DNA of 45,121 nt from a bacterium. Its GTDB lineage: Bacteria; SM23-31. The notes under the pieces are model-generated. The model saw nothing but the letters and a program-made list of their open reading frames with translations. It ran no database searches and was not told where the DNA came from. Of this stretch, positions 8,555-44,765 are shown in pieces. The translations under genes were made by a program, and so were the position numbers. The stretch spans positions 1 to 45,121 of the forward strand of contig JANQEH010000105.1 of assembly GCA_028278455.1 (NCBI GenBank), given 5' to 3'. Each line of letters begins with the position of its first letter. The first letter of the stretch is position 1.

Positions 8555-8617
8555 TGTTATAATTAATATAACATATATTTACGGAGCCTGAATATTTTTG
8601 TTACACTTTTTATAACA
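8555..8617. promoter_or_regulatory. Two candidate PadR1 operators (TGTTATA half-site)
   Basis: The first dyad, 8555-8573, is TGTTATA-N5-TATAACA with perfect arms. The second, 8599-8617, is TGTTACA-N5-TATAACA with one mismatch. The first sits where transcription would begin and the second covers the -35 element of the promoter at 8580-8605. This is the placement expected of a repressor site. Assignment to PadR1 is inference. Confidence 0.7.
8580..8605 (-). promoter_or_regulatory. ECF sigma-W-like promoter of unit 1
   Basis: On the minus strand this reads TGTAAC-N16-CGTA, one base from the TGAAAC-N16-CGTA consensus known for Bacillus sigma-W. It is about 46 bases upstream of the PadR1 start. 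The same motif precedes all six other PadR genes in the window. Confidence 0.65.
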
Positions 8618-8758
8618 AATTAAATATTAACGGTAGTTCTAGGGATTATTTATTAGAAAATCTGTCTAACAAAGGGATATTAGTTTTGAATAGCATTCAG
8701 GATTTTTTATCAGTATATTTATCAGATATTTCCCATTACAGGGCTGCATACACTTCAT

Positions 8759-9166
8759 ATGAATCGTACTATTATACACCCTCCGGTAATTCCGGTTACT
8801 GTAAAGATAGCAAATAATCCGGATCCGGTAAAAAAACCTGTGAAAAAGAAAGACAGGATACGGCTTTTGGTCAATACTGAAAACTCTTTCGAGCCTAAAT
8901 CTATTGTCAGGGTTAATTATCCAGTAACTGACAAGGATTTCATTGTTACAGGCACTGTTATCAAATGTGAAGAGGATAAATCACGATATAACGTTGTCAT
9001 TGAATTTTCAGATCCTGATAATATCTGCCGTGTCCGAATGGTCGAGCAGATTTGCCGTATAGAGCTTTACAAAAGGCAGGTATTGAAGAATGAAGGACGC
9101 TCGATCACTAAAACCCAGGCCGCACTTGAATGGATAGATAAATACGCCAAAGATTTTATGGTGTGA
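8759..9166 (+). CDS. PilZ-like domain protein, small cytoplasmic
   Basis: The 135-residue protein has no signal peptide or membrane segment. Residues from about 32 to 105 look like a beta-barrel of PilZ type, and the C-terminal part ('MVEQICRIELYKRQV' then 'TQAALEWIDKYAKDF') resembles the helical tail of small PilZ-like proteins I recall from proteobacteria. The usual c-di-GMP motifs RxxxR and N/DxSxxG are not evident, so nucleotide binding is doubtful. It is transcribed away from unit 1 and ends 11 bases from the end of permease B on the other strand. No strong ribosome binding site is visible. Family assignment is moderate; function is unknown. Confidence 0.55.
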   Translation: MNRTIIHPPVIPVTVKIANNPDPVKKPVKKKDRIRLLVNTENSFEPKSIVRVNYPVTDKDFIVTGTVIKCEEDKSRYNVVIEFSDPDNICRVRMVEQICRIELYKRQVLKNEGRSITKTQAALEWIDKYAKDFMV

Positions 9167-9177
9167 TCTTTCCCTGA

Positions 9178-11724
9178 TTATTCATACCTGAGAGAATCCA
9201 CAGGATTTGCACGCGCGGCTTTAATCACCTGGAAACCAATAGTAAATATTGTAAGAATAACTGCAGTAAGTAATGCTATGAAAAACAGCATAAATGATAT
9301 TTCTGCATGATAAGCAAAATTGTTCAGCCACCTGCTCATCAAATAGTATGCAATAGGGAAGGCTATAATATTTGAGGCGACCACAACTGTGATGAATTCC
9401 CTGCCAACCAATACGAGAATATTATCCATTCCTGCACCAAGTGTTTTCCGTATTCCGATCTCCCTGGTCCTTTGCTCAGTAATACAAGCTACCAAACCGA
9501 ATAATCCGAGACAAGAGATCAGCAGTGTCAGAAAAGTAAAAATCCTGAATATGGTACTCATCCGCTGTTCCGACTCATAATAACGCTGGAGAGATTCATC
9601 AAGAAATCTGACCTCGAACGGAAAATCCGGCGCAAATTTATTCCATACACTCTCTATATAGGAAAAAGTTTTTCTGAAATCTGATCCCGGAGCAATTCTG
9701 ATTATAGAATTATAGTAGAAATCCGGCATGATCAAAAACATTACAGGCTCTATCTCTCTGTGCGCTGACCTGCAGTGAAAATTCTTGACAACACCAATTA
9801 TCTTCCCTTCATTTCCCCACAATGCGAAACGTCTTCCTACAGGAGATTCATATCCCATTGTCTCTACAGCTTTTTGATTTAAAATATATGCAGTTCTCCT
9901 GTCGGTTTTCATTTCCTCAGAAAAGTTCCTGCCCTCTACAAGTTCAAGACCTACAGCTGGCAGGAAATCATAGTCTATTGAGAAAAAAGGCCATGTCGGA
10001 TTATAGTCTTCAGGTTTACCATCCCAATCCATTCCTGATCCGGTATTTCCTACCGCTGAAGGGACGCTGGATGCAAAACAAACATCAACAATATACGGAT
10101 CTCTCATTAACTCATTTTTAAAAGAATCACTATTCTCCTGTACCGGAGGTTTTAACCTGATATATACAAGATGGTCTTTCTCAAAACCAAGATTCATTCT
10201 ATTTATATATTCAAGCTGGTCGTAAATAACACATGTTGATATAATCAGGGCCGTCGAGATTGTGAATTGAAATAATACAAGTTTCTTCCTGCCCCCGACA
10301 CCGGATGATTTGTTACCTCCACCGGATCCCTTTACGAGTTTCACAGGATCAAATCCTGAAAGAAAAAGCGCGGGATATATACCGGCAGCTATTCCGGTAA
10401 AAAGGATAACTGAAAGCAGCATGGCAAGTATCGTAAAATTCCCGAAAACAAGTAAAGAACTAAAATTCAGTCCGGCATTTGTGTTTACAATCGGCAGGGA
10501 GAAGATAGTAACAGCCAGCGCAACCGAACCGGCGATTACCGATATCAGAGCAGATTCACCAAGAAATTGATTTGCAAGCATAAAGCGTGTGCTTCCTATC
10601 ACCTTTCTTACACCGATTTCTCTTGCCCTGGTATTTACCCGGGCTGTTGTAAGGTTAATAAAATTCACTATTGCTACTATCAGTATAAAAACTGCTATAG
10701 CAGAGAAAATATATACATACTTTATTGCGCCGTTTTCATAAAGATGGATATCCTTGATTGGTACGAGTCTCAGTTTTTCGGATATTGCAAGATCAGGTAC
10801 TTTCTCAATGACAGTATTCTCAATCTTCGGGATCAGACTAAGATAATCAACGTTATTTTCAAGCTGAACATAAGAAAAAAGATAGTGGTTTCCCCAGAAT
10901 TTTTGAAAATCTGATATTCCTTCAGATTCAAGGGTCTCAAAGGAAGCAAGGAATTCGAATTCAAAATGTGTATTATCCGGCAGGTCTTTGAGAACTCCCG
11001 TAACCTGAAGACCATAATTATTGTTACATTTAAGAACTTTACCGACAGGATCATCACTGCCGAAATACTTTTTAGCAGAACCTTCGGTCAACAATAGAGA
11101 ATATGGTTTTTCAAGTGCTGTAACCGGATCGCCTGAAACTAATGGGAAATTGAACAGGTCAAGAAATTCAGGATCAACATATGCAAAATTATTCTCTTCG
11201 AATGTTTTCTTTTGAAACCTGATAGTTGATCTTCTGTTGTAAAACCTTGCGGTCTCGATAATCTCCGGATAATTATCTTCGAGATGCGGCGCCAGCGGGT
11301 ATGGCTGATGTGCAGATATTGACTTTATCTGAAATAGCATGTCTGCATTGGAGTGAAATCCTTCATATTCCAGATCATTCTGTACTATAAGAAGAATGAT
11401 CATGCAGCATGCCATTCCCAGTGCAAGGCCGGTTATATTAATAAAAGAGTACCCGGAATTTCTCCTGATAATTCTGTAAGCGATCTTCACGTAATTTTTA
11501 AACATTGCCGTGCTCCTCTCAAAACTTGAAGGAATGCACTGGATTAATATGTTGAACAATTGAATCCAGTACCAGGTCTTTGCTTTGATTTTACCTTTTC
11601 TATCACGGATATCTAGGAATTCCTCTTCAATAAGATCGCTTAGCGCAAATCTTTCTTCGTAAAGGGATAATTTCGAGATTATCCATTTTGCGATAACAGG
11701 CGGTTTTCTTCTTCGTTCGGTCAT
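9178..11724 (-). CDS. Orphan FtsX/MacB-type permease B with prefix domain (unit 2)
   Basis: At 848 residues this is the shortest of the eight permeases. The prefix starts 'MTERRRKPPVIAKWI' and contains the acidic stretch 'DLIEEEF' and the landmark 'WYWIQ'. The two coupling loops read 'REIGVRKVIGS' and 'REIGIRKTLGA'; both are intact, so interaction with an ATPase remains possible. The tail is 'NPVDSLRYE'. The ATG at 11724 lies three bases beyond the PadR2 stop, so both are on one message. No passenger gene follows, because the unit ends against the PilZ-like gene that runs towards it. Confidence 0.9.
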   Translation of the reverse strand: MTERRRKPPVIAKWIISKLSLYEERFALSDLIEEEFLDIRDRKGKIKAKTWYWIQLFNILIQCIPSSFERSTAMFKNYVKIAYRIIRRNSGYSFINITGLALGMACCMIILLIVQNDLEYEGFHSNADMLFQIKSISAHQPYPLAPHLEDNYPEIIETARFYNRRSTIRFQKKTFEENNFAYVDPEFLDLFNFPLVSGDPVTALEKPYSLLLTEGSAKKYFGSDDPVGKVLKCNNNYGLQVTGVLKDLPDNTHFEFEFLASFETLESEGISDFQKFWGNHYLFSYVQLENNVDYLSLIPKIENTVIEKVPDLAISEKLRLVPIKDIHLYENGAIKYVYIFSAIAVFILIVAIVNFINLTTARVNTRAREIGVRKVIGSTRFMLANQFLGESALISVIAGSVALAVTIFSLPIVNTNAGLNFSSLLVFGNFTILAMLLSVILFTGIAAGIYPALFLSGFDPVKLVKGSGGGNKSSGVGGRKKLVLFQFTISTALIISTCVIYDQLEYINRMNLGFEKDHLVYIRLKPPVQENSDSFKNELMRDPYIVDVCFASSVPSAVGNTGSGMDWDGKPEDYNPTWPFFSIDYDFLPAVGLELVEGRNFSEEMKTDRRTAYILNQKAVETMGYESPVGRRFALWGNEGKIIGVVKNFHCRSAHREIEPVMFLIMPDFYYNSIIRIAPGSDFRKTFSYIESVWNKFAPDFPFEVRFLDESLQRYYESEQRMSTIFRIFTFLTLLISCLGLFGLVACITEQRTREIGIRKTLGAGMDNILVLVGREFITVVVASNIIAFPIAYYLMSRWLNNFAYHAEISFMLFFIALLTAVILTIFTIGFQVIKAARANPVDSLRYE

Positions 11725-11727
11725 AAT

Positions 11728-12054
11728 TTATTTTATCTCGATAATTAGATCCGAAATGCTCTCCCAGGCAGTTTTCTGGATCTTATACTGGTGTCTCAAA
11801 GCATTCTGGCCTTCTTTAGTAAGAGTATACATCACTTTCCTGCGCCCTCCCTGCTGTGATACAGGATCGCTTTCATCTGAACTGATATACCCTTTTTTCA
11901 CCAGCTTATATAGCGTTTTACACAAGGAACCATAATTAATTTGTTTACCTGTAGTGGATACGAAATCCTTTTTAAGAGTTACTCCGTAAGCATTATCCTT
12001 TAATTTCCAGATGGAGATCAGGATAAGCTCTTCATGTTTTGTTAATTCGTACAT
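11728..12054 (-). CDS. PadR family transcriptional regulator 2
   Basis: This 108-residue winged-helix protein has residues 43-50 of the recognition helix reading SLCKTLYK and a wing with 'QGGRRKVMYTLT'. GAGGA about ten bases upstream supports the ATG. It heads unit 2. The single perfect dyad in front of it, with ATGT/ACAT inside its arms, is the one in the window most like operators described for classical PadR and LmrR proteins, although the spacing is shorter. Confidence 0.92.
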   Translation of the reverse strand: MYELTKHEELILISIWKLKDNAYGVTLKKDFVSTTGKQINYGSLCKTLYKLVKKGYISSDESDPVSQQGGRRKVMYTLTKEGQNALRHQYKIQKTAWESISDLIIEIK

Positions 12055-12070: not shown

Positions 12071-12089
12071 TGTATGTCTTTTACATACA
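12071..12089. promoter_or_regulatory. Candidate PadR2 operator (TGTATGT half-site)
   Basis: TGTATGT-CTTTT-ACATACA is a perfect 7-bp inverted repeat with a 5-nt spacer. It lies directly downstream of the -10 element of the promoter at 12094-12119, that is over the predicted start of transcription. Only one dyad is seen here. Confidence 0.72.
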
Positions 12090-12093
12090 AATA

Positions 12094-12119
12094 TACGAAC
12101 TACGGAACTCATTGTTTCA
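12094..12119 (-). promoter_or_regulatory. ECF sigma-W-like promoter of unit 2
   Basis: The minus strand reads TGAAAC-N16-CGTA, an exact match to the consensus. It lies about 40 bases upstream of the PadR2 start, between the unit 3 terminator and the operator. Confidence 0.72.
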
Positions 12120-12870: not shown

Positions 12871-15510
12871 TTACTCGTATTTCAGCGACTCAACCGGATT
12901 TGCGCGCGCTGCTTTAAATGTCTGGTATGCTGATGTTATGATCGCCAGGGCAAGAGCCATTACAGATGATAGAACATATAGCCAGAAGCTGATCTCAATT
13001 CTGAACGCGTAATGCTGAAGCCATCGATCCATGATCTGATAGATCAAAGGGAAGGTTAGTATCGAGGCTGCCAGGACCACTCCAAGAAAAGACTTGTTCA
13101 TCATGATCATGAGCTGCATGTTATCTGCCCCGAGGACCTTCCTTATTCCGATCTCCTTAGTTTTCTGTTCTGCTGTATAAGCCGCCAGGGCAAACAGGCC
13201 GAGACCGGAAATGAAAATTGCGAGAAAAGCAAAATATCTGAACAGGTCACTTAGTTTTTCCTCGGATCTGAACTGGCTGTCAAAATTCTCATCTACAAAG
13301 AAAAATTCGAAGTCCAGGTTGGGAACAAACTCTTTCCATTTGCTTTCTATAAATGAAATGGTTTCTGATATGTTATCTCCGTCGATCTTTATAGAAAGAT
13401 AACCTGCTTCGAAAGGCATTATTCCATATATTATTGGTGCGATATCTTCCTTCATTGATCTGTGGTGATAGTCCTTAATGATACCAATAATTGTCTTTTC
13501 GGGTTCTCCTGTTGTCAGGTTACTTAAACTCTTGTTTAGAGCTTCCTCACCGGTCCAGCCAATTAATTTTGCCGCCTGCTCGTTCAACATATATGAGTTT
13601 GTAGAGTCGGCGCTTATATCGCTGGAAAAATCCCTGCCGTAGACTGTATCAAGTTTATATGTATCGAGATAGTCAAAATCCACTCTAATAGACTCGATGA
13701 TCAGTGAAGAATCATCACTGTAACCTTCCGGCTGAAATGCTGTTGTAGCCGTATTCTTTCCGGGAATCGATGTAGAAAATGATGCTTTGAATATTTTCGG
13801 ATTATCTTTAAGCTGCTCCTTAAACATTCTTCCCTGGTTCCTTAGACTTCCTGACCTCATCCTGATCACAACGACCTGTTCCTTATCAAAGCCGGGATTC
13901 TTAGTCCTCATAAAGTTTAACTGATTAAGGACTATTATCGTACTGAAAATAAGACTGATCGATATAACGAATTGCACCATTACAAGCGACTGCCTGAAAT
14001 ACTTTCTTCTTTTTGAGTTCTTCAGGTTACTGCTCATTGTCTTTATGGGACGAAACCTTGCCGAGAATATCGAAGGATAAATTCCTGCAGCCAGACTTGT
14101 TACAGCTATCAATCCAAAAATGAGAAGCAGGATCTGCTTTTGAAACAGATACGTTGCCGTGATTTTCAGTCCTGTCAGAGAATTGAATACAGGCAGCAAT
14201 AGTATTACGGAAATAATACCGAGCAGCACGCTTAAGATGATCATGATCAGAGATTCGCTGAAGATCTGACCAATGATATTCATCTTCACTGCTCCAAATA
14301 CCTTACGTATCCCAACCTCTTTTGACCGGTCCGATGACCTGGCTATAAATAGATTTATGAAATTCGCGCAGGCTATCACAATTATCAGACCTGCAATAAT
14401 AAATTGCAGGTAAATATATTCAATACTGTTATTTGGTTCCATCTCTCCTTCAAGGTGTGAATTGAGATGAATATCGGTTATTTTTTGAATATGGTAGTAC
14501 CAGTATCCACCCAGGGCCCTGTGCCTTTCACCGCTGTATTTTTCATATATTTCGGCGAACTTCTTCTTTACTTCCGTAAGATCAGCTTTCCTGTCTATCC
14601 GTAGATATGTAAAAAAAGGAAAATATCCCCAATCGTGGAACATCATACGCTTTCTTCTCTCTTCGTCTATCGACAGATGAGACACCAGCATCTTGAATTT
14701 GAAATGAGTGTTAGGCGGAGGATCCTCGATCACACCTGTAACACGGACATCTCCAATTCTGTATGAATTGATCCTGAGTATTTTCCCAATGGGATTCTCA
14801 TCGCCAAATAGCTTTGCAGCAAAAGTTTCCGTCAGGACTACGCAATCCGGTTCGTCCAGTGCAGTGTTTGGATCTCCATTTAAAAATCCATAATCGAAGA
14901 TCTGTGAAAAAGTCGAATCGGCAAGGAATATTCCAGTTTCTTCAAACATCTCACCATCCTTTATTATCCCAAGCTTTGCTCCTCTTGGATTCAATCTCCT
15001 TAACCTGGTATAGCCAAGGACTTCAGGGATCTCCTCAGTAAAAGTTGGGCCGGGAGGACCAGGGATGGTAGCATAATGTCTTTTAGTATCACCAATATGA
15101 ATATCATTTGTTAATCTGTATATATTAGAGAAATTTTCAAAATGCCGATCATAACTCAGTTCAAAATGTAAATATAGAATAATAAATATACACGCTGCAG
15201 TAGCAAGTGTGAGTCCAAGGATATTGATCAGTGTATAACCTTTGTGCCTCTGGATGTTCCTAAATGCAACTTTCAGGTAGTTACTAAACATTATAAAGCT
15301 CCATTTTATTCTTAATACAATGATTGACGGAAACATAAGTATGATCTGCCGCCAAAACCACAGGCATGCTGCAGGTCTTCCCTTTTCACTAATAAGTTCT
15401 GTAAACCTTCTGTCGAAATCCTGAAGGGCGCCTGATTTAACTTCAGCCGGGATAAGTCTCTCTAAAGACAACCTTGCATACATCGACAATCTGTTATTTC
15501 TTTCCGACAA
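12871..15510 (-). CDS. Orphan FtsX/MacB-type permease C with prefix domain (unit 3)
   Basis: The 879-residue reading uses a TTG start two bases after the PadR3 stop, with GGAG about ten bases before it. The next ATG (15483) would remove part of the prefix domain that the paralogues have, so TTG is preferred. The prefix landmark is 'WFWRQ'. The coupling loops are 'KEVGIRKVFGA' and 'KEIGIRKVLGA'; the tail is 'NPVESLKYE'. The first periplasmic domain carries 'LRRLNPRGAKLG' where the paralogues differ strongly, as expected if each senses or binds something different. The Tat-exported gene follows in the same unit. Confidence 0.88.
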   Translation of the reverse strand: MSERNNRLSMYARLSLERLIPAEVKSGALQDFDRRFTELISEKGRPAACLWFWRQIILMFPSIIVLRIKWSFIMFSNYLKVAFRNIQRHKGYTLINILGLTLATAACIFIILYLHFELSYDRHFENFSNIYRLTNDIHIGDTKRHYATIPGPPGPTFTEEIPEVLGYTRLRRLNPRGAKLGIIKDGEMFEETGIFLADSTFSQIFDYGFLNGDPNTALDEPDCVVLTETFAAKLFGDENPIGKILRINSYRIGDVRVTGVIEDPPPNTHFKFKMLVSHLSIDEERRKRMMFHDWGYFPFFTYLRIDRKADLTEVKKKFAEIYEKYSGERHRALGGYWYYHIQKITDIHLNSHLEGEMEPNNSIEYIYLQFIIAGLIIVIACANFINLFIARSSDRSKEVGIRKVFGAVKMNIIGQIFSESLIMIILSVLLGIISVILLLPVFNSLTGLKITATYLFQKQILLLIFGLIAVTSLAAGIYPSIFSARFRPIKTMSSNLKNSKRRKYFRQSLVMVQFVISISLIFSTIIVLNQLNFMRTKNPGFDKEQVVVIRMRSGSLRNQGRMFKEQLKDNPKIFKASFSTSIPGKNTATTAFQPEGYSDDSSLIIESIRVDFDYLDTYKLDTVYGRDFSSDISADSTNSYMLNEQAAKLIGWTGEEALNKSLSNLTTGEPEKTIIGIIKDYHHRSMKEDIAPIIYGIMPFEAGYLSIKIDGDNISETISFIESKWKEFVPNLDFEFFFVDENFDSQFRSEEKLSDLFRYFAFLAIFISGLGLFALAAYTAEQKTKEIGIRKVLGADNMQLMIMMNKSFLGVVLAASILTFPLIYQIMDRWLQHYAFRIEISFWLYVLSSVMALALAIITSAYQTFKAARANPVESLKYE

Positions 15511-15512: not shown

Positions 15513-15836
15513 TTAAATATCTCCGGTTAATTCAGGCAGACCAGACCACATAGCCGAATTCACTTCCTGAATCCTCTTAAGCGCAAGTTTCCCGCTGGTT
15601 GTCAGCCTGTAGAGGATTTTGCTTCTACCGCCACGCTCAGGTAAAGGATCACTATTATAGGATTCAACATATTTCATTCTGACAAGTCGCGCAAGAGGCG
15701 CATAAATTGCCCCAAACTTGATCGAAATACCTGTCTGTTTTTTTATTAACTCACGGATGGTCACACCATAAGCATCATCCTGCAGTTTCCAGACAGCGAG
15801 TAGTATCAATTCATCTTTTCTTGATAAAATTTCCAT
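15513..15836 (-). CDS. PadR family transcriptional regulator 3
   Basis: This 107-residue winged-helix regulator has residues 43-50 reading AIYAPLAR and a wing with 'RGGRSKILYRLT'. GGGGA is five bases before the ATG. It is separated from permease C by two bases. The promoter region has one dyad over the -10 element and a second upstream of the -35 element, both with TACAC/GTGTA-like arms. Confidence 0.92.
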   Translation of the reverse strand: MEILSRKDELILLAVWKLQDDAYGVTIRELIKKQTGISIKFGAIYAPLARLVRMKYVESYNSDPLPERGGRSKILYRLTTSGKLALKRIQEVNSAMWSGLPELTGDI

Positions 15837-15862: not shown

Positions 15863-15913
15863 TATACGTTTTGTGTACATATTGGTTTCAATATATCTAC
15901 ACTAAATGTGTAG
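15863..15913. promoter_or_regulatory. Two candidate PadR3 operators (TACAC/GTGTA half-site)
   Basis: The dyad at 15863-15877 is TATAC-GTTTT-GTGTA (one mismatch) and covers the -10 element. The dyad at 15897-15913 is CTACAC-TAAAT-GTGTAG with perfect 6-bp arms and lies just upstream of the -35 element. Their centres are 35 bases apart. Confidence 0.7.
15865..15890 (-). promoter_or_regulatory. ECF sigma-W-like promoter of unit 3
   Basis: The minus strand reads TGAAAC-N16-CGTA, an exact match. It begins transcription towards PadR3, whose ATG is about 29 bases further on. Confidence 0.72.
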
Positions 15914-15993: not shown

Positions 15994-18612
15994 TCATTCA
16001 TATCTAAGCGTTTCTACCGGTTTAGCGCATGCAGCCTTTATGGTTTGAAAAAGTATAGTGACCAGTGCAAGCATGAAAGCGGATAGGCCCGATAGTAAAA
16101 AAATTTCCCAGCCTACATTGATTCTATAAGCATACGATTCTAGCCAGCGGTTAACTATAAAATAACCTATCGGGATTGCGAAAACACTTGCTATAACTAT
16201 CCAAACGGCAAGATTCTTTACGAAGATACAGGCTATACTCATTTCTGTTGCCCCGAAGGTTTTCCTTATACCGATCTCCTTTGTACGCTGCTCAATCATA
16301 TATGATACGAAGCCGAAAATCCCCAGGCTGCTGATAATAATAGCGAGGATAGCAAATATCTGGACGATCTTTCCTGCTTTTTCTTCCGAGTTATACATGC
16401 TGCTGATACGGTCTTCGAGAAAACTGTACTCAAATGGGTGGTTCGGTTCCATACGGTCCCATATACTTTCTATTCCTGCAAGAGTATTTTCAAAGTTTTC
16501 GGATTTAATTCTCAGCATCATGTAATGTGAATGTGGGAAATTTGTAATAACCAATGGATCGATCTTATGATGAAGAGACCTGCAGTGGATGTCTTTCATG
16601 ATCCCTACTACTGTCCAGCTCTTATCTCCGTTTTCGGTTTTGATCTTCTTACCAATCGGTTCTTCCCATCCTATCATTTTTGCTGCAGTTTCATTGATGA
16701 TAACCGAGTTATCCCTGTCTGCCGGAAATTCTTTAGTAAAACGCCTGCCTTCAATGATCTCTATTTCAAGAGTCTTAAGATAATCGTCGCTGACATCATA
16801 CAATACCGCATTAATTGTTTTTTGTTCTGAAAGTCCCTCAGGATTTAATTTGCTCAGTGCGTAATATCCGCCGGGCAAAGTAGTAGTAAATGACACTTCT
16901 TCGACACCTTCAAGCAGCAATAACTCCTGCTTAATTGAACTGATCCAAATATCAACCTTTTCATTACCAAGGTCTCCCATATAGTCTGTATATACCGGGG
17001 AGTAGATTAATTGCTTGTCATTGAAACCCAGTCCTGTCTGCTTTAAGAAATCTATCTGCCCGAAAACACCAATTGTTACTATTATAAGAGAAATCGAGAT
17101 AAGGAATTGAAGAACCACCAGGGCATTACGGGAGAAAGAAATATTCTTTCCTCCTGTATTAATCCCTTTTATAATTTTTATCGGCCTGAATCCTGAGACG
17201 AAGAACGCTGTATATACGCTTGCTGTGAAACTGATAATACCAAGGATCATTAATGCTTGAAGGATTAGTGATCTGGTTGTTAAAAAACCGATATCGAGAT
17301 TATAGCCCGATATAAAGTAGAGATATGGAAATGTCAATACAACAAGTATGATCCCTATAATAAATGCTATAAGGGTGTTTAACGCTGATTCACCAAAACA
17401 CTGGAGAATTAACTGCTCTTTGAAAGCGCCGAGAACCTTTCGCATCCCTATCTCTTTTGTCCTTTTTGTCCATCTTACTGTTGATAGGTTTACATAATTA
17501 AAAATTGCTATCAGCAGAATAAACACCGCGCTTGTAATAAGTCCATATATATAGGTTATATTCGTATTTCCCGGATTATCATATGTCAGGTTTGAATAAA
17601 GATGTATAGATGTTAAAGGCTGAATTAAAACTGAAAGATTTCGTCCGGTTGATACTAATACATCACTATACTGCTGATCGAAGAATCCACTGAGTTTGGA
17701 TTCGAATTCATCAATATTATGATCCTCCCTCATAAGAATGTATGTAAACCAGTCGAAATGCCCCCGGTATTCAAAGGGATGCTCAAAGATCTTTTTCATC
17801 GACTCCATCGAGATCAGCGCATCGTATTGTAGATGCGAATTCACCGGAGGCTTGACCATGATCCCCGTTATTGTAAATTCGTATTCATCATCGCATTTTA
17901 TAATTTTACCAAGAGGATTTTCATCTCCAAAATATTTCTCTGCCAGCTCTGCAGAAAGCACAACGGTGTATGGCAATGTAAGTGCATTATTAGGATCTCC
18001 ACTTAGCAGTTCAAGATCGAAAATGTTGAACACTGAATTATCGGCATAATAGAGGCCGTCTTCTTTAAATTTTTTGTCACCATTTGAAAAGGTTTCAAGC
18101 CAGGGTTTAGCAAAACGCACAATATCTTCTACCTCAGGAAAATTCAGCTCCAGGTAATCTTTCACTGACGAATGAACACTTGCGATACTGTAATGATTAA
18201 TCCCCTGTGTTCCTGTAGCGGCAAACCGGTATATCCTGTCTTTATTACCGTGATATTCATCAAAAGAGAATTCAAAATTCACATATGCAAGAATAAGAAG
18301 GCTGCTTGCTATCCCAAGTGATAGACCGGTCAGATTGACTATTGAATAAGTCTTATACCGCTTAATATTTCGAAATGCGATTTTTAGATAGTTCTTTAAC
18401 ATTTTCATACTCCAGATAATATTGAATATTCGATTTCTTAAAAGTGAATGAAGTACCTGTTTCCAGTACCATATATCTGCATTAAGCCTGCCATGGTCCA
18501 TCAATCTCTCTTTATAGATATCACTCAGGGTTCTGATCAGATCAAACTCTTCATCGAATCTCGAGAATAATCTTATGATCAGGTTTGCGATAAAAGGTGG
18601 TTTATTACTCAT
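15994..18612 (-). CDS. Orphan FtsX/MacB-type permease D with prefix domain (unit 4)
   Basis: I start it at the ATG at 18612 (872 residues, 'MSNKPPFIANLI'), which has AAAGGA at the right distance and follows the PadR4 stop by 13 bases. The longer reading from 18648 would overlap PadR4. The prefix contains 'WYWKQ'. Coupling loops are 'KEIGMRKVLGA' and 'KEIGIRKTFGA'; the tail is 'KPVETLRYE', with a cysteine (AACAKP) where the others have R or another small residue. No passenger gene follows; a hairpin ends the unit. Confidence 0.9.
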   Translation of the reverse strand: MSNKPPFIANLIIRLFSRFDEEFDLIRTLSDIYKERLMDHGRLNADIWYWKQVLHSLLRNRIFNIIWSMKMLKNYLKIAFRNIKRYKTYSIVNLTGLSLGIASSLLILAYVNFEFSFDEYHGNKDRIYRFAATGTQGINHYSIASVHSSVKDYLELNFPEVEDIVRFAKPWLETFSNGDKKFKEDGLYYADNSVFNIFDLELLSGDPNNALTLPYTVVLSAELAEKYFGDENPLGKIIKCDDEYEFTITGIMVKPPVNSHLQYDALISMESMKKIFEHPFEYRGHFDWFTYILMREDHNIDEFESKLSGFFDQQYSDVLVSTGRNLSVLIQPLTSIHLYSNLTYDNPGNTNITYIYGLITSAVFILLIAIFNYVNLSTVRWTKRTKEIGMRKVLGAFKEQLILQCFGESALNTLIAFIIGIILVVLTFPYLYFISGYNLDIGFLTTRSLILQALMILGIISFTASVYTAFFVSGFRPIKIIKGINTGGKNISFSRNALVVLQFLISISLIIVTIGVFGQIDFLKQTGLGFNDKQLIYSPVYTDYMGDLGNEKVDIWISSIKQELLLLEGVEEVSFTTTLPGGYYALSKLNPEGLSEQKTINAVLYDVSDDYLKTLEIEIIEGRRFTKEFPADRDNSVIINETAAKMIGWEEPIGKKIKTENGDKSWTVVGIMKDIHCRSLHHKIDPLVITNFPHSHYMMLRIKSENFENTLAGIESIWDRMEPNHPFEYSFLEDRISSMYNSEEKAGKIVQIFAILAIIISSLGIFGFVSYMIEQRTKEIGIRKTFGATEMSIACIFVKNLAVWIVIASVFAIPIGYFIVNRWLESYAYRINVGWEIFLLSGLSAFMLALVTILFQTIKAACAKPVETLRYE

Positions 18613-18625
18613 GGTCCTTTCTGCT

Positions 18626-18949
18626 TTATGTTTCTTTATAAAGTACATCCGGAATGTTATCCCATATCTTATTATGCAGGTCTCTGGTTTTTTCCAGAGC
18701 TCTGTAACCGTCTCCGGTTATCCGGTATATTACGATATCCTTCCCTTTCTCACTGACCGGCCTTCCCTTTTCCTTATTCAGATAGCCTTTTCTGCCAAGC
18801 TGTTTAAGGGTGTTAAACAGAGTCCCCACTATCACATCCTCACCCGTCATTTTCATTATTTCCCCGTGAATTGTCACACTATAGGCATTCCCCTTCAGCC
18901 TGTATATTGCAAGCATGACTGTCTCTTCAAAAACGGTCAGACTCCTCAT
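18626..18949 (-). CDS. PadR family transcriptional regulator 4 (divergent wing)
   Basis: The ATG at 18949 is chosen over 18970 because AAGGAG lies nine bases upstream and because it aligns with the other six PadRs. The protein has 107 residues; residues 43-50 read TLFNTLKQ. Unlike the others it lacks the GGR motif in the wing and has 'EKGKDIVIYRIT' there instead. That change, and the less uniform operator pair in front of it, suggest altered DNA contacts. It heads unit 4. Confidence 0.9.
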   Translation of the reverse strand: MRSLTVFEETVMLAIYRLKGNAYSVTIHGEIMKMTGEDVIVGTLFNTLKQLGRKGYLNKEKGRPVSEKGKDIVIYRITGDGYRALEKTRDLHNKIWDNIPDVLYKET

Positions 18950-18980: not shown

Positions 18981-19020
18981 TACAGTATTCCTGTATCTAA
19001 GTATAACGTAAATTACGTTA
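18981..19020. promoter_or_regulatory. Two candidate PadR4 operators
   Basis: The dyad at 18981-18995 is TACAG-TATTC-CTGTA and lies downstream of the -10 element. The dyad at 19004-19020 is TAACGT-AAATT-ACGTTA, perfect over 17 bases, and covers the -10 element and half the spacer. Aligned on their centres the two share ATnAC...GTnAT. Centres are 24 bases apart. Confidence 0.65.
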
Positions 19021-19030
19021 TTTGGTTTCA
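19005..19030 (-). promoter_or_regulatory. ECF sigma-W-like promoter of unit 4
   Basis: The minus strand reads TGAAAC-N16-CGTT, one base from consensus in the -10 element. It lies between the terminator of unit 5 and PadR4. Confidence 0.65.
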
Positions 19031-19141: not shown

Positions 19142-21757
19142 CTATTCGTCCCTGAGAGAATCGACGGGATTTGCTGAGGCAGTCCTAACCGATTGCAGAC
19201 TTACGGTAAACAGGGCTATAAAAAATGCTATGAATCCGGCTGATATAAAAAAGAGTGGATTGATACCAATTCTGAACGCGAAATTCTGAAGCCATTTATC
19301 CACTGCAAAGAATGCTATTGGCCAGGCAAAAAGGTTACCTGCTGCGACAAGCACAAGAAAATCACGGTTAATCAGGCTCATTATTCCGGATGACGAAGCG
19401 CCGAGGACTTTTCTTATACTGATTTCCTTATTCCGCCGGGCCACCGTCAGGGATGTGAGGCCGAACAGACCGGAGCAGGCTATAAATATTGCGAAGAACG
19501 AGACAAAACTGAACATCCTGCCATACTGCTTTTCACTTTCGTATTCCCTGGCGATCTCTTCATCCATGAATGAATACATGAAAGGATCATCAGGGGCTAA
19601 CCGGTTAAATTCTCTCTTTATCAAATCCAGGGTACTTCTTATATTGTCACTGTTCATTTTTATATATATATAACTGTAATGGTCATCTCCCCCTTCATCA
19701 GGTAAGGTCAGGTACAGCGGCATTATCTCATTGTGCAGCGAATTATAATGGAAATCCTCGACAATCCCAATGATTTCTCCGTCTCCCCAGGATCTCTTGA
19801 AAATGTTAGATAGTTTTTTTCCGATAGGCGATTCAACTTCATATTGATCAACAAATGTCTGGTTTACTATGATAGTCCTCCCGGCATCGGATGGACGGTC
19901 TTTTTGAAAATTCCTACCCTCAGTAAGTTTCAGTCCAAAAAAATCAAGGTATTTATAATCTACCCAGTTGAACCTCAATAACGACCTTTCTTTCATGTTG
20001 TTTTCTACTACGGATGCAGAGTACATATTATACTTTGCATGTGATGCAGAAACGGATACGATCCGGGAATCGGATTGAAGCCTGTCTCTGAGAGTAGAAA
20101 AGATTATATCGTTTCTACTCTGGTCAGAAGAGCTGTTTTGAAGGTCCAGGGTAATAGCAAGTTCGCTGTCTAAACCGAATTTCTTATCCATCATGAAATC
20201 ATATTGTTTATTAATCGCTATAGTGAAAATTATAAAAAAGATCGAAATAACAAATTGAAAGATTATCAGGAACCGTGAGAATGAGTTTTTTCCAGTCATA
20301 CCAAAAACCTTTTTGAACAGATCGACAGTCGTAGATCTCGACATTGCCAAGGCAGGATAGATTCCTGAGGTGACACCTACCAGCAATCCGGCACAGCAAA
20401 GTCCAAGTATATATTTAATACCCATCAGATAGTCAAGACTGAGCATTCTCTGTGTCATTTCATTAAAGGTAGGTAGGAAACCTATTGAAAAAACAACACC
20501 TGTTATGATCGCAATACAACTTATTATAATAGATTCAACCCAGAATTGTCTTATGAGCTGTTTTCTCTGGGCGCCGAATACTTTTCTGAGCCCTATTTCT
20601 TTCATTCTTGGAGAAGAACCTCCAACTGAAAGGTTGACGAAATTGCATACCGCAATGATCAGAACCAGAACCGATATGGCCGACAAGATGTAGGAATAAA
20701 GCTTATTACTGCTGTTTCTCAATACACCTGAGTAATAATAATCCAGGTGGTAATCTGTCAAAGAGTTGAGGTGGTAGCCAGACTTCTTAGAAACACCCTT
20801 ATCATAAAGATTCTTGTTAATAGTATCAGGAAACTTATTTTCTAGGTCTGCAGCCTGTTCCCTGTTTTCTAGACGAATAAAAACAGAAGGGCCGCTGGAC
20901 AGGTCCCATACATCCAGGCTTTCACCGGATGATATTCTTATGTTGATAACAAAATCCAGAGGCAGGCTTGAATTAGAAGGTATTTTCTCAAATACCCCCG
21001 ATACTGCAAAAGTCCTGAATCCATCCCTGATCTTTACCTGGAGAACCTTACCAATCGGTTCATTCTCTCCGAAATACTTTTCAGCCATATCCTGACTCAG
21101 TATCACGGAATTCATCTCTAATTCTGTTGCATTTCTATTACCTTCTTTTACTGGGAATGTGAAGATGTCAAAAAACTCGGGATCTACGCACAAGAACCTT
21201 TCCGTAAACGTCCGGTCTTCATATCTTACTATATAGTCCTCGTAGTCTGCCCTTGCGGCGTTAAGGATTTCCGGGAACATGGGAGTCAGTGTAGGCGCCA
21301 AAGGTGATTGAGGACGTCTCCATACAATATTATTTTCTCCATAGTAGTACTCGGAATACACTTGGAAGATCTCATCGGCATGCTCATGGAATCTGTCATA
21401 TGTATATTCATCCCTAATAAATGAAAAGATCAGTATACAGCATCCGAATGCTATAGCAAGACTCAGGATATTAATCAATGAATAAAGCTTATTCTTCCGA
21501 AGATTACGCGCTGAGATTTTAAGGTAGTTTTTAAACATTGCATATGTCCTTTTAGTCCGGTTTGAAAAATAGTTGGGTATTGCCGAAATGGTCTGGAAAC
21601 GATACCAGAAAGACGCATAGAATATCCCCTTTTCATGCTGAAGGTCATGGAAATCCTCCTCGATATCACTCACAGTAGTATAATGCCCTTTATCCGGGAA
21701 CATCCTGCCGAAAAGATATTCAGATAAACGCGGCGGCTTTTTCTTAACCGAATTCAA
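19142..21757 (-). CDS. Orphan FtsX/MacB-type permease E with prefix domain (unit 5)
   Basis: The start codon is TTG at 21757, overlapping the PadR5 stop as TTGA, so re-initiation is likely. The 871-residue product has a prefix beginning 'MNSVKKKPPRLSEYLFG' with 'WYRFQ' as landmark. Coupling loops are 'KEIGLRKVFGA' and 'KEISIRKVLGA'. The usual 'EQR' before the second loop is replaced by 'ARR', and the tail ends 'SLRDE' rather than 'SLRYE'. These small losses in otherwise fixed positions mark it as one of the more diverged copies. It is alone in its unit with PadR5. Confidence 0.88.
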   Translation of the reverse strand: MNSVKKKPPRLSEYLFGRMFPDKGHYTTVSDIEEDFHDLQHEKGIFYASFWYRFQTISAIPNYFSNRTKRTYAMFKNYLKISARNLRKNKLYSLINILSLAIAFGCCILIFSFIRDEYTYDRFHEHADEIFQVYSEYYYGENNIVWRRPQSPLAPTLTPMFPEILNAARADYEDYIVRYEDRTFTERFLCVDPEFFDIFTFPVKEGNRNATELEMNSVILSQDMAEKYFGENEPIGKVLQVKIRDGFRTFAVSGVFEKIPSNSSLPLDFVINIRISSGESLDVWDLSSGPSVFIRLENREQAADLENKFPDTINKNLYDKGVSKKSGYHLNSLTDYHLDYYYSGVLRNSSNKLYSYILSAISVLVLIIAVCNFVNLSVGGSSPRMKEIGLRKVFGAQRKQLIRQFWVESIIISCIAIITGVVFSIGFLPTFNEMTQRMLSLDYLMGIKYILGLCCAGLLVGVTSGIYPALAMSRSTTVDLFKKVFGMTGKNSFSRFLIIFQFVISIFFIIFTIAINKQYDFMMDKKFGLDSELAITLDLQNSSSDQSRNDIIFSTLRDRLQSDSRIVSVSASHAKYNMYSASVVENNMKERSLLRFNWVDYKYLDFFGLKLTEGRNFQKDRPSDAGRTIIVNQTFVDQYEVESPIGKKLSNIFKRSWGDGEIIGIVEDFHYNSLHNEIMPLYLTLPDEGGDDHYSYIYIKMNSDNIRSTLDLIKREFNRLAPDDPFMYSFMDEEIAREYESEKQYGRMFSFVSFFAIFIACSGLFGLTSLTVARRNKEISIRKVLGASSSGIMSLINRDFLVLVAAGNLFAWPIAFFAVDKWLQNFAFRIGINPLFFISAGFIAFFIALFTVSLQSVRTASANPVDSLRDE

Positions 21758-22083
21758 TTAATGTCTCCCGCTTCACGGGTATAAGCAGCTTCCCACATTG
21801 TATTGCCCATTTCCCGGATTGCTGTGAGAGCTTCCTTTCCAGTAAGTGATATCCGGTATATACGCTTGCTCCTTCCTCCCCTTTCGGATAATGGTTCAGT
21901 AAGATATGAATCGAGGTATCCTTTTCTTACCATCTGTTCCAGTGAAGTAAATAATGCCCCGTACGACCATGATTTGCCGGTCACCTCTTTCAAACGCTGT
22001 CTTATCATAACAGCATAAGCGCTCTCCTTGAGGTAAATGACAGCAAGAAGAATGAATTCTTCTGTTCGTGATAAAAGTTTCAT
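21754..22083 (-). CDS. PadR family transcriptional regulator 5
   Basis: This 109-residue winged-helix regulator has residues 43-50 reading ALFTSLEQ and a wing with 'RGGRSKRIYRIS'. AGGAG upstream supports the ATG. Its first helix lacks the usual W in 'AVWxLK' (here AVIYLK). It is coupled to permease E through TTGA. The gene starts about 200 bases from the divergent metallo-beta-lactamase-fold gene at 22284, so the region between may control both. Confidence 0.92.
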   Translation of the reverse strand: MKLLSRTEEFILLAVIYLKESAYAVMIRQRLKEVTGKSWSYGALFTSLEQMVRKGYLDSYLTEPLSERGGRSKRIYRISLTGKEALTAIREMGNTMWEAAYTREAGDIN

Positions 22084-22099: not shown

Positions 22100-22114
22100 T
22101 ATTTCCTTGAAATA
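22100..22114. promoter_or_regulatory. Candidate PadR5 operator (TATTTC half-site)
   Basis: TATTTC-CTT-GAAATA is a perfect dyad with a 3-nt spacer (or 5-bp arms with a 5-nt spacer). It is about 15 bases downstream of the -10 element at 22129-22132, inside the 5' leader. No second perfect dyad was found. Confidence 0.5.
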
Positions 22115-33124: not shown

Positions 33125-33130
33125 TTGTCC

Positions 33131-34117
33131 ATGAATGAAAAATATTACGGAATAAAATGCTTTTCAGTTCTTCCGGAGAACTGTCATTTCAATCGCAGCC
33201 AAGTAATTTCAGCACGATATATCAATTTATTCCCCAGGCTCACTGGACATATTAATAAATATAATCATAATCCATCCTTTTCGATTCGCTGTCTCATTAT
33301 CCTGGCTCTCATAGTATTCATACCTTTCACTACAGGCTGCTTCAAGGATATCGTCAGTATTGATCTCAGCGGTATCGGTTCGAAAATGGTTATCAACGGA
33401 CTTGTCACAGATACCGGCTATAATATTGTGGCAGTCAACAGGATTGCGGATTATTTCCTGAACGGCGAGAATCCATCTGTTCCGGGAGCTAAGGTGACCT
33501 TCATGGACAATGAAAACAACACGTATATACTTGATGAGTTTAAGGATGATCCCGGGCGATACCGCAGCCGGGAATATGAAGGAAAACAGGGAAGAGAATA
33601 CAGATTGAGTGTGATTATTGAAGGCGAAGAATACTCGGCAGTATCCAAAATGCCTGATGCGCTTGAACTGGATTCCATCTGGTTTGAATTGGAATATAAC
33701 AGATTTTTTAAGGTTAAGTGCCGGTTTACGAACCGTACGGGCATTAAGGATTTCTGCTGTTTCGCCATGTATAACAGCGGTTATTCCGTTTTTTCAGATT
33801 TCCAACTCTATTTCGACCGTGAAGAAAATGACGGAAAAGAAATCACGTACACTTTTGAGAATGTCGGCTTCAACCTGACGACTACCTGATTATCCAGGTC
33901 TGGGCTATTGTAGAGGTTTTATACAACTATTATTCTTTTCTCAATACTCTCAGGGAATATGAACGTGAGTATGATGATATTGATTCACCGGATACGATCT
34001 TTTTACCGCTGACATATTATAATCCCACCTCTAATATGTCTGAAAATGCACTTGGTTATTTTAACGCAATGGCATTTAAAATGCTACGGATTCCTTATCT
34101 ATTTTTAACAGATCCTG
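33131..34117 (+). pseudogene. Frameshifted DUF4249-type lipoprotein gene
   Basis: A hydrophobic leader with lipobox 'FTTGC' precedes 'IDLSGIGSKMVINGLVTD', 'SVPGAKVTFMDNENN' and 'REYRLSVIIEGEEYSAVSKMP', the pattern of DUF4249 proteins that follow TonB receptors in Bacteroidota. The frame stops at 33889, yet 'DYLIIQVWAIVEVLYNYYS' and a plausible C-terminus ('NPTSNMSENALGYFNA') continue one base out of phase from about 33877 to past 34070. One frameshift is therefore clear. The open frame then runs into the end of the opposite M24 gene, so the true end is lost or displaced. The leader is unusually long if the start is near 33131. It shares the fate of the receptor upstream. Confidence 0.78.
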
Positions 34118-41741: not shown

Positions 41742-41761
41742 ACTTACTCCCTCCCCCCCCT

Positions 41762-44362
41762 TCACTCATACCTTAAACTATCGACCGGGTTGGTGCGGGC
41801 GGTCCTGAATGCCTGAAGTCCGACTGTAAACGCGGTGACAGCAAGCGCAATCAGCGAAGCTCCGAGAAGAACAAAAACTCCGATATTCGTCCGGTAGGCG
41901 AACATCTCAAGCCACCGGTTCATAACGTAATACGCCAGCGGGTAAGCCAGTATATTCGATAACAGCACCAGAGCTATAAACTCCTTCGTAAGCAGGTTCA
42001 TTATACTCCCGTTCGAGGCGCCGAGAACCTTGCGGACACCGCATTCCTTTGTCCTCTGTTCCGCAGTGTATGCGGCCAGCCCGAAAATACCCATGCAGGC
42101 TATGATGATCGCGATGAAAGAAAACGTCCTGAAAATATCCCCGGCCCTCTGTTCGCCGGTATAGAGTCTGTCGAAATCGGACTCGAGAAACCTGAACTCA
42201 AACGGAAAAGAAGGAGCAACTGCTTTCCATGAACTTTCCAGATTTTCCAGGATTTCCGGTACACTCTGAGGCGAAACTCTGACAAGCATTACCCCGGTCC
42301 TTTCCGGAATAAGCCTCATCACAAGCGGGCGCATCGCCATCCGCAGAGGAGTGTAGTGAAAATCCCTGACAACACCGATCACCGTACCCTCCTGACCTGC
42401 AAACATCAGCCTTTTTCCGACAACATCATCCATCCGCATGATCCGCCTCATCTCCTCGTTGATTATGAATCTGTTTCCTAAATCCGTCGCAAACTCCCGG
42501 GAGAAATCCCTGCCCTGGATAAGCTGAATCTTCATTGTTTCTATAAAGTCATGGTTGATTCTGAAATCCCCCATCGTCGGATTATACTCCGGATTCTTAC
42601 CTTCCCAGTCAGCATATGTCGTACTGCTCCCGATGAATGACGGCCTGTCCTGTAAACCCGTAACACTTTCCACCCCGGGAACCGTCTCGAATCTTGTCTT
42701 TAACGTTTCGAAATACTGCCGGTTACCGGAATTCAGCGGGATCATGATCACGTTATCAGGCTCATACCCCATATCTTTCTCCCGGATGTAATCGAGCTGA
42801 TCGTTTATTATTCCAGTTCCGATGATCAGGGAGATCGACAGAACGAACTGGAATGCAACAAGAATTTTCCTTATTACTGAATTTTTTGTCCCTGCACTCA
42901 GGTTTCCTTTCAGTGTGTTAACAGGCTGAAAACGCGAAAGAAAAAACGCAGGGTAACTGCCCCCTGCGAGCCCTGTGAACAAAGTTATACCGAGCAGAAG
43001 CAGGGGTACGTACGAATTCTGCAATATGCTGAAACTTATATTCCTACCGAACATTCCGTTGAAAGCCGGAAGCAACAGTACAGCGAGAGCAACAGCCGTG
43101 ATCAGCGCAATAGTTGACAGTACCATCGATTCACCGAGGAATTGTATGATCACATTCTTCCTGTCGGCGCCGGAGACCTTCCTGAGGCCGATCTCCTTCG
43201 CCCTTCGGGACGACCGGGCTGTCGACAGATTCATGAAGTTGATACTCGCTATAAGAAGTGTAACGAATGCTATCGCAACGAAAAGAGTTAAAGTCTGCCT
43301 CCTGCTCTCACCACGGTATACCGTATCGAACCTGATCCACTGCAAAGGTTTTATAGAAACCTGGGGGAGCTGGTCATCTGTCATTTTCTCTGTTTCTTTG
43401 GGTAAGACTATCCTGATCTTCGATCCGAGGTAATTGGTGAGTTTGGCTTGCATATCTTCACCGGAAGCGCCCTTTCTGAGCCTGACATAACATAGCGGGG
43501 AATTATGTGTCCAGCCTGGAACATACCCCTCGAGAACGTTCAGTTCCAGCCGGAGTGTGTAAGGAAGCAGGATTCTGAACCTTACCATGGAATTAAATGG
43601 AACATCTTCGATCACGGCCTTGACAGCGAGATTATATTCACCGTTAAATGTCAGAACTTTACCTATCGGATCCTCATCACCGAAATATTTTTCGGCAATA
43701 CTCCTTGTCAGCACTATCGACCTTGGATCGTTCAGAGCATTATTCCCGTCTCCGTATATGAAATCGAATTTGAACATCTTCAGAAACACCGGATCGACGA
43801 AAAATGTACTTCCCTCGTAGAAAGGATCGTTTCCTCTTGTAAGAAGGATCCTTCCGGCGCTGTGGAATCTCGAGGCTCCCACAACTTCAGGAAATTCCTC
43901 CATCAGGGCCGGTGCAAGCAGCACCGGTGTGGCAGTTACCGGACGTCCCTGGAAGGTCTTAATCGCCTGGTAGAGGAATTCGGCATCATCGTGGTAAGTA
44001 TCGTAATTCAGCTCATCGAGTATCCAGAGTGATATCAGGATACAGCATACCATACCCGTGGTCAGTCCTGAGATATTGATTAATGAATATGCTTTCTGTC
44101 TTCTCAGGTTTCTGAGTGCGATTTTCAAATAGTTCTTATACATTGTAAGTCTCCGGCAGATGGTTGAAAACAGTATCTGGGGTATCACTTTCAGCACCTG
44201 CAGAATATACCAGGAAACTGCACTGAACCTTCCCTTCCGGGAAGCGAGATCCTCGAATTCGATCTCGAGATCGTCCATAAGCGAATACCCGTCTTCAAGA
44301 TTATTGATCCTGAGCAGGATCTTTGAGGCCCATTTCGGCGGTATTTGCTGCCTATTCGTCAT
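41762..44362 (-). CDS. Orphan FtsX/MacB-type permease H with prefix domain (unit 7)
   Basis: The ATG at 44362 ('MTNRQQIPPKW') has GGGGAG five bases upstream and overlaps the end of PadR7 by 11 bases; the reading from 44380 would overlap more and lacks such a site. The product has 866 residues. The prefix contains 'DDLEIEFEDL' and 'WYILQ'. Coupling loops are 'KEIGLRKVSGA' and 'KECGVRKVLGA', and the tail is 'NPVDSLRYE'. The gene looks richer in G+C than the other permeases. It lies 11 kb from the main array, separated by unrelated genes. It ends 20 bases from the opposite gene at 41741, next to a run of C. Confidence 0.9.
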   Translation of the reverse strand: MTNRQQIPPKWASKILLRINNLEDGYSLMDDLEIEFEDLASRKGRFSAVSWYILQVLKVIPQILFSTICRRLTMYKNYLKIALRNLRRQKAYSLINISGLTTGMVCCILISLWILDELNYDTYHDDAEFLYQAIKTFQGRPVTATPVLLAPALMEEFPEVVGASRFHSAGRILLTRGNDPFYEGSTFFVDPVFLKMFKFDFIYGDGNNALNDPRSIVLTRSIAEKYFGDEDPIGKVLTFNGEYNLAVKAVIEDVPFNSMVRFRILLPYTLRLELNVLEGYVPGWTHNSPLCYVRLRKGASGEDMQAKLTNYLGSKIRIVLPKETEKMTDDQLPQVSIKPLQWIRFDTVYRGESRRQTLTLFVAIAFVTLLIASINFMNLSTARSSRRAKEIGLRKVSGADRKNVIIQFLGESMVLSTIALITAVALAVLLLPAFNGMFGRNISFSILQNSYVPLLLLGITLFTGLAGGSYPAFFLSRFQPVNTLKGNLSAGTKNSVIRKILVAFQFVLSISLIIGTGIINDQLDYIREKDMGYEPDNVIMIPLNSGNRQYFETLKTRFETVPGVESVTGLQDRPSFIGSSTTYADWEGKNPEYNPTMGDFRINHDFIETMKIQLIQGRDFSREFATDLGNRFIINEEMRRIMRMDDVVGKRLMFAGQEGTVIGVVRDFHYTPLRMAMRPLVMRLIPERTGVMLVRVSPQSVPEILENLESSWKAVAPSFPFEFRFLESDFDRLYTGEQRAGDIFRTFSFIAIIIACMGIFGLAAYTAEQRTKECGVRKVLGASNGSIMNLLTKEFIALVLLSNILAYPLAYYVMNRWLEMFAYRTNIGVFVLLGASLIALAVTAFTVGLQAFRTARTNPVDSLRYE

Positions 44363-44693
44363 ATTCTCCCCGTACATCAAGCGCCATTTTCGTACTGCCG
44401 CCCCAGATAGCTTCCTGGAACCTGTAAGCCTCCTTCAATACACTGACACCCCGTTTTGTCAGCGTATAAAAATTTTTCCGCCGCCCTCCCTTTTCAGGGA
44501 TCGGCTCCCCCTCTTCGCGGGACAGCAGCCCCTTCCTGACAAGCTGTCCAAGGATCCTGTATAACGTCCCGTAATTCCACTGCTGCCCGGTCATCTCTTT
44601 TATCTTACTCCGGATATGCACTCCATAGGTATTATCCTTTAGATGAAGAATAGAGATAAGTAATATTTCTTCGTGTTTTGTGATGTCTGACAT
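44352..44693 (-). CDS. PadR family transcriptional regulator 7
   Basis: The ATG at 44693 (113 residues) is chosen over the GTG at 44702, because AGGTGG is eight bases upstream and because the N-terminus then aligns with the other PadRs. Residues 43-50 read TLYRILGQ; the wing has 'KGGRRKNFYTLT'. The C-terminus is a few residues longer than in the others, and this tail is what overlaps the permease start. Two nearly identical dyads precede it. Confidence 0.92.
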   Translation of the reverse strand: MSDITKHEEILLISILHLKDNTYGVHIRSKIKEMTGQQWNYGTLYRILGQLVRKGLLSREEGEPIPEKGGRRKNFYTLTKRGVSVLKEAYRFQEAIWGGSTKMALDVRGEYDE

Positions 44694-44714
44694 TCGGACC
44701 ACCTATTTTATATA

Positions 44715-44754
44715 TATGCGCCATGCATACATCTATATATATGCGATCAGCATA
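44715..44754. promoter_or_regulatory. Two tandem candidate PadR7 operators (TATGC half-site)
   Basis: TATGC-GCCAT-GCATA at 44715-44729 and TATGC-GATCA-GCATA at 44740-44754 share perfect arms and differ only in the 5-nt spacer. Their centres are 25 bases apart. The second covers the -10 element of the promoter, the first the start region. Confidence 0.75.
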
Positions 44755-44765
44755 ATAATGTTTCA
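44740..44765 (-). promoter_or_regulatory. ECF sigma-W-like promoter of unit 7
   Basis: The minus strand reads TGAAAC-N16-CATA, one base from consensus. The changed base belongs to the TATGC arm of the operator that overlaps it, so the deviation may reflect operator constraint. Confidence 0.65.

Follow-up and report, generated by a model that had tools for sequence, protein, structure and literature searches.

Why do seven operons on a single contig begin with the same promoter-like block? The contig JANQEH010000105.1 (GenBank assembly GCA_028278455.1, from a bacterium of the SM23-31 lineage), all 45,121 nucleotides of which are here called the window, carries seven units in which a gene encoding a PadR-type regulator stands before a gene encoding a permease. 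An earlier note had pointed to a block, TGAAAC-N16-CGTA, directly upstream of each PadR gene and had taken the array to be one regulon of an extracytoplasmic function (ECF) sigma factor encoded elsewhere. The question is whether such a common switch would be the whole of the control or whether each unit would also answer to the PadR protein it encodes. Judged from the sequences described below, it is quite probable that one ECF factor serves all of the units, each of them repressed by its cognate PadR protein through an operator of its own.

All seven sites are present, on the minus strand, each with a spacer of 16 bases. Three of them are exact copies, those of unit 2 (12094-12119), unit 3 (15865-15890), and unit 6 (30393-30418), with scores of 24.3, 24.6, and 28.8, respectively, according to the position weight matrix (PWM) described below. 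The other four have one mismatch each: TGTAAC-N16-CGTA in unit 1 (8580-8605, PWM score 20.0), TGAAAC-N16-CGTT in unit 4 (19005-19030), AGAAAC-N16-CGTA in unit 5 (22129-22154, PWM score 20.7), and TGAAAC-N16-CATA in unit 7 (44740-44765). The chance expectation of an exact match in the window is 0.08, below one as the note had said, and three were reached in none of 100 shuffles. Matches with at most one mismatch number 10, compared to 2.25 expected, and the three beyond the seven (2828, 38108, and 41093) do not lie before PadR genes. In the seven units, the end of the -10 block is 28-55 bases from the PadR start codon.

Does the block keep the same company elsewhere in the genome? The assembly to which the window belongs, as one whole contig, comprises 5.28 Mb in 318 contigs and is 76% complete, and the genome-wide counts come from pattern and profile searches. 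Exact sites with a spacer of 16 occur 30 times (6 for a reversed-pattern control) and with a spacer of 17 occur 20 times (7 for the control); the spacer of 16 that the note held to be invariable is so within the window, but elsewhere 17 is also common. The expected concentration before PadR-permease units was found, with 29 of the 50 exact sites in that position (they fill 52 rows, two of them being entered a second time because their loci overlap). Viewed from the genes, 84 of the 121 testable PadR upstream regions contain TGAAAC-N14-18-CGTA with at most one mismatch, while 2.9 would be expected from shuffles. The match is exact in 31 regions and has one mismatch in 53; dinucleotide shuffles give 0.2 and 2.7. 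Of the spacers allowed, only 16 and 17 are strong, and these hold nearly all sites. From the promoter down to the start codon there are 23-220 bases, mostly 39-60. Aligned, the promoter sites read TGAAACAWWT-N-CGTATATAT, with little information in the columns beyond the motif. A PWM score of at least 10 is reached by 102 of the 121 regions (the opposite strand gives 9 and shuffles give 1.75), a count that is partly circular, since 81 of these regions had served to build the PWM. The motif emerges also when it is not presupposed: when the 114 upstream regions of PadR genes beyond the window were searched for pairs of words separated by a gap, GAAAC-N16-CGTAT was recovered, through the pairs GAAA-N17-CGTA, AAAC-N16-CGTA, and AAAC-N17-GTAT.

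The block equals, as the note had claimed, the consensus published for SigW promoters of Bacillus subtilis, TGAAACN16,17CGTA (PMC2375139). One might suppose instead that in this lineage, which is uncultured and whose own primary promoter is not known, TGAAAC...CGTA is simply the housekeeping promoter. That is very unlikely. A housekeeping promoter would be expected far more often before other genes, but in the 5.28 Mb no more than about 21 exact sites are found away from the PadR units, compared to about 13 for the control patterns, so the motif is not equally frequent before unrelated genes. The identity with the sigma-W consensus speaks against it as well, as do many PadR units of Candidatus Aminicenantes (discussed below) that have TTGACA-like blocks, two promoter types coexisting there.

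A second possibility is that the whole block is no promoter but a conserved site bound by every one of these PadR proteins, which are paralogous and whose operators would be expected at just this place. This is highly improbable. Those PadR operators that have been described have the form of an inverted repeat, ATGT/ACAT (PMC3506622), but the block is no palindrome. Moreover, positions in the recognition helix vary strongly among the PadR paralogues while the block is constant, and the block is found before genes of other kinds: high-scoring sites precede five GntR-type genes (assigned by sequence, one of them confirmed with Pfam) as well as genes encoding MarR-like and TetR-like regulators, a PspC-like protein, and a small membrane protein.

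If the block is a common ECF promoter, then what might distinguish one unit from another? Palindromes were sought in 81 unit promoters, their centres counted from the C of CGTA (the first base of the -10 block), and were compared with a swapped control in which left and right halves were exchanged between units. In a complementarity map corrected for column composition, centres -4 and +21 rank first. A strong palindrome is found at -4 in 19 of the 81 units (3.2 in the swapped control), at +21 in nine (0.7), and at +19 in six (0.3); in all, 32 promoters have one at a tested centre, and seven have one at both positions. In the spacer and downstream regions, a unit repeats its own word far more often than a word is found again from one unit to another, both as direct repeats (15 versus 0.56 at a score of at least 16) and as inverted repeats (9 versus 0.52 at that score). 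A direct-repeat test at one fixed period over all units gave no clear peak because the units differ, so the comparison of own with foreign sequences was needed. An apparent pairing of -22 with -18 in the covariation map was discarded as an artefact of mixing spacers of 16 and 17. Candidate private operators are present, by these measures, in a large minority of units, not in all.

The palindrome centred at -4 (O1) reaches into the -10 block, and the block bears its mark. Of the 19 units with O1, 14 have a -10 sequence other than CGTA; of the 62 units without it, 14 do (Fisher p 8e-5). In the window, palindromes at -4 are found only in units 4 and 7. Unit 4 has a candidate O1, ATAACGTAA-T-TTACGTTAT, at 19003-19021 and a candidate second operator, TACAG-N5-CTGTA, centred at +20 (18981-18995). 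Unit 7 has TATGC-N5-GCATA as candidate O1 at 44740-44754 and again, centred at +21, as candidate O2 at 44715-44729, where both the palindrome search and the comparison within the unit find the O1 half-site repeated 25 bp away. The departing base of CGTT in unit 4 and of CATA in unit 7 is part of the palindrome, which it completes, and this explains why these two -10 sequences are inexact. The -35 variants of unit 1 (TGTAAC) and unit 5 (AGAAAC) are not explained by palindromes. Units 1, 2, 5, and 6 have their palindromes at +17 to +25: TGTTATA-N5-TATAACA in unit 1 (centre +19, 8555-8573), TGTATGT-N5-ACATACA in unit 2 (centre +17, 12071-12089), ATGTTT-N3-AAACAT in unit 6 (centre +18, 30371-30385), and a weak candidate, TATTTC-N3-GAAATA, in unit 5 (centre +25, 22100-22114). 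With private palindromes of this sort, the reading shifts from one plain regulon to a regulon with individual locks.

At locus L150 (about 11860-11940), a segment containing the operator and the -10 block (TGTACGAAAGATACGTAATAATA) is repeated 25 bp downstream, before the PadR gene.

Which protein would read the private operators? Structures of PadR proteins assign the recognition of DNA to helix 3 and the wing to beta1-beta2 (PMC3506622). Similarity between units in the promoter-proximal sequence correlates with identity in the recognition helix and wing of their PadR proteins (partial r 0.14, permutation p 0.0005), while the rest of the protein, once helix and wing are accounted for, shows no correlation (r 0.013, p 0.32). 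Some caution is called for, since the columns taken as helix and wing had been chosen following a sliding-window scan of these very data, though they coincide with the structural assignment. The correlation points at the cognate PadR protein as the probable reader of the operator.

Perhaps, however, the patterning reflects nothing more than the youth of the units as copies of one another. The family has indeed the look of an expansion: a profile of the seven window PadR proteins has 125 matches genome-wide, nearly all of one subfamily, compared to 6 and 3 in two genomes of sister genera from the same taxonomic family, although those assemblies are incomplete (79% and 63%) and the expansion in this lineage is to that extent apparent. 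Even so, recent duplication as the sole cause is scarcely credible. Median identity among the PadR paralogues is 0.38, a single pair exceeds 0.7, and the columns outside the motif, as noted above, carry little information. Furthermore, another phylum, the Aminicenantes, has this promoter too, with operators centred at similar positions in some examples.

Relatives in other genomes were found with a consensus PadR query; a permease query gave no matches. The note had expected the motif before orthologous units, and it does precede a PadR gene of a sister genus (L188), while a PadR upstream stretch is identical in one sister-genus genome and in 'bacterium SM23_31' (L179 and L192), an identity that puts the genome of the window into the family of SM23_31. 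Eight Candidatus Aminicenantes genomes have from 1 to 85 PadR genes of the window kind each, and 11 of 32 PadR upstream regions sampled from them reach a promoter score of at least 10 (0.25 in shuffles), so the expectation is borne out in part of that phylum. Three others (L224, L218, and L225) have CTTGACA-like sequences upstream of PadR and lack the ECF block, which suggests that sigma-70-type and ECF-type control may be mixed in the Aminicenantes family. In individual examples, palindromes are centred at -4 and +22 (L204), at +21 (L234), and at +27 (L201 and L199). The recurrence of the promoter in the Aminicenantes suggests a scheme common to phyla.

The sigma factor itself was sought among 29 sigma loci; an ECF factor is usually accompanied by an anti-sigma factor and expressed from a promoter that it regulates itself. 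A regulon under one ECF factor encoded elsewhere is in keeping with the promoter that the PadR units share, but the search did not single out the cognate factor, and the copy of the motif that the note had looked for before an ECF/anti-sigma operon is nowhere perfect. Three loci have a candidate upstream site, none of them decisive. The best candidate, L038, encodes an ECF factor and a downstream anti-sigma-like protein behind TGAAAC-N17-TGTA (one mismatch, score 14.2); its orthologue in one sister genome (L274 in G002) has a site scoring 15.4 at a nearly equal distance, and its orthologue in the other (L269 in G001) has no similar upstream site. L035 encodes an ECF factor, a zf-HC2 protein, and an ABC ATPase behind TGCAAC-N17-CGTC (score 12.9). 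L054 (857-2744) is a MarR-ECF-pirin operon after TGGAAC-N16-AGTA (score 18.1), a candidate link to the regulon. Choosing by likeness to the solved SigW was abandoned: the closest factors, L032 and L031, have no upstream motif.

Several of these results weigh against a common promoter with private locks. A full-strength copy of the promoter in the right place was found at none of the 29 sigma loci of an assembly that is 76% complete, and the cognate gene may lie in the missing quarter of the genome. The remaining 21 of the 32 Aminicenantes regions score below 10, so there the coupling is not universal. The Mantel correlation between operator and helix/wing is significant but small. Finally, 49 of the 81 promoters have no strong palindrome at the locked centres, and the promoter of window unit 3 has none. 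One might conclude from these last counts that the ECF promoter is real but the palindromes incidental, leaving one simple regulon with PadR acting elsewhere. That alternative is unlikely, given the position-locked excess over swapped controls, the recurrence of words within units and not between them, the link to DNA-contact residues, and the departure of the -10 block in units with O1. Regulation by a common sigma with private PadR operators accordingly remains the reading followed here.

The genes of the seven units, all on the minus strand, are arranged alike. Throughout the genome, a duplicated MacB/FtsX-type permease follows PadR directly in all 107 of the genes with at least 900 downstream bases, with a median gap of 1 base. 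In the window, the PadR genes of units 2 (11728-12054), 4 (18626-18949, ATG at 18949), 6 (30018-30347), and 7 (44352-44693, ATG at 44693) encode proteins that match Pfam PF03551 above its cut-off, those of units 4 and 7 matching the subfamily profile as well. The PadR protein of unit 1 (8205-8534) has no Pfam match alone, but the subfamily profile, of which it is itself a member, finds it with an E-value of 3e-42; those of units 3 (15513-15836) and 5 (21754-22083) are placed by the subfamily profile, that of unit 3 also matching TIGR03433 weakly. Domain scans identified the permeases of units 1 (5591-8227, duplicated MacB_PCD/FtsX), 2 (9178-11724), 6 (27391-30021), and 7 (41762-44380), along with a second permease behind unit 6 (24715-27336) that has neither its own PadR nor its own promoter site. 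Those of units 3 (12871-15510), 4 (15994-18648), and 5 (19142-21757) are members of the permease family profile whose N-terminal prefixes align with the others.

Comparable named families are acidobacterial: the ADOP permeases (TIGR03434) and their PadR partners (TIGR03433), which likewise combine expanded PadR families with duplicated MacB_PCD/FtsX permeases. Both proteins here are, however, far below the curated cut-offs, the window PadR proteins scoring 22-33 bits against TIGR03433 (cut-off 101.8) and five permeases 237.8-308.7 bits against TIGR03434 (cut-off 622); the permeases resemble ADOP and DarB-type permeases under the curated cut-offs. Domain scans of window proteins turned up no ABC-transporter ATPase among those covered. 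In the literature searched, no paper was found that describes a shared ECF promoter of ADOP/PadR families or an expansion of PadR-permease units.

The prefix of the permeases brings to mind the HAAS-PadR dyad, in which PadR is linked to a membrane protein with an N-terminal helical domain before FtsX/MacB_PCD, a pairing proposed as an alternative to two-component systems, the membrane-linked HAAS domains signalling to their PadR partners (PMC11237479). Here the prefix resembles instead permease prefix domain 2 (NF038404), which is matched by 54 of 80 prefixes at an E-value of at most 0.01 (best 5.4e-10), although the first member prefix scores 20.3 bits, below the curated cut-off of 35. Six permease prefixes did not match HAAS in Pfam. 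A structure model of the prefix consists of three helices (pLDDT, the predicted local distance difference test, 84), and a Foldseek search with it gave no match below an E-value of 5. By analogy, the prefix could play a HAAS-like signalling part. At L117 (16107-18952), an exact site with a spacer of 17 precedes a GntR-type regulator and then a duplicated permease without the N-terminal prefix; to judge from this one case, the promoter seems to accompany permeases of this class, and the prefix to accompany PadR.

How might the parts work together? Each unit would be an operon of a PadR repressor and a permease read from one common type of ECF promoter, and a single ECF factor encoded elsewhere would switch about 100 such operons together. 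In a large part of the units, an operator private to the unit would overlie this promoter: O1, with its centre in the stretch from the -35 to the -10 block, often joined by O2, which lies some 23-25 bp below it, close to where transcription is expected to start. There the unit's PadR protein would bind as a dimer, block RNA polymerase, and so repress its own operon. Expression would then require both active sigma and the release of that one PadR protein, an AND gate repeated about 100 times. Release would come probably through a signal passed by the permease or its N-terminal prefix domain.

A precedent for this logic, the sole known example found in the literature searched, is the sigC-lstR-lmo0421 operon of Listeria monocytogenes (Hauf et al. 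2019, PMC6624303), which has an ECF-type promoter and encodes both PadR and a membrane protein. Activity of that promoter depends on SigC and is 77-fold higher when the PadR protein LstR is absent, so that an ECF-type sigma and PadR act in opposite directions on one operon, and both inputs are needed for full expression (PMC6624303), as is proposed here. In Listeria, however, there is one operon, encoding its own sigma, which acts on that operon only; here there are about 100 operons with a common promoter, each with its own PadR. The other comparison is with the sigma-W regulon of B. subtilis, which has the consensus TGAAAC-N16,17-CGTA(T) (PMC2375139); here, one of the sites away from PadR precedes a PspC gene. 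The present lineage is unrelated to Bacillus, and for its cognate sigma there are candidates only. The sigma-W regulon of B. subtilis comprises membrane and envelope genes, and we know of no PadR gating of its members.

Two further features of the window lie apart from the seven units, both on the plus strand. At 164-1947, a gene for an AAA_21 ATPase is followed by one for an RloB-like protein, a pair that we take to recall anti-phage defence of the RloA/RloB type. At 30973-33889, domains of a TonB-dependent receptor are found in separate open reading frames (plug at 30973-31488, barrel at 32156-32746), and the gene looks like a broken or fragmented one.

The ingredients of the proposed control are known, but their arrangement at such a scale is not described in the literature searched. 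The genome may hold a combinatorial array, a view for which we consider the case evenly balanced: sigma would be the common enable line, and sigma together with one specific signal would select a single permease, each held off by its own PadR protein through a private and often dual operator that has co-evolved with the recognition helix. Annotations of PadR plus permease, of unknown purpose, would in this way become a testable scheme of control. Some 80 PadR proteins and the promoters before their genes, in many cases overlaid by a candidate operator, form a natural data set for relating PadR residues to DNA specificity. For the organism, the scheme suggests one global signal over more than 100 related membrane operons, each of which may yet be addressed individually.

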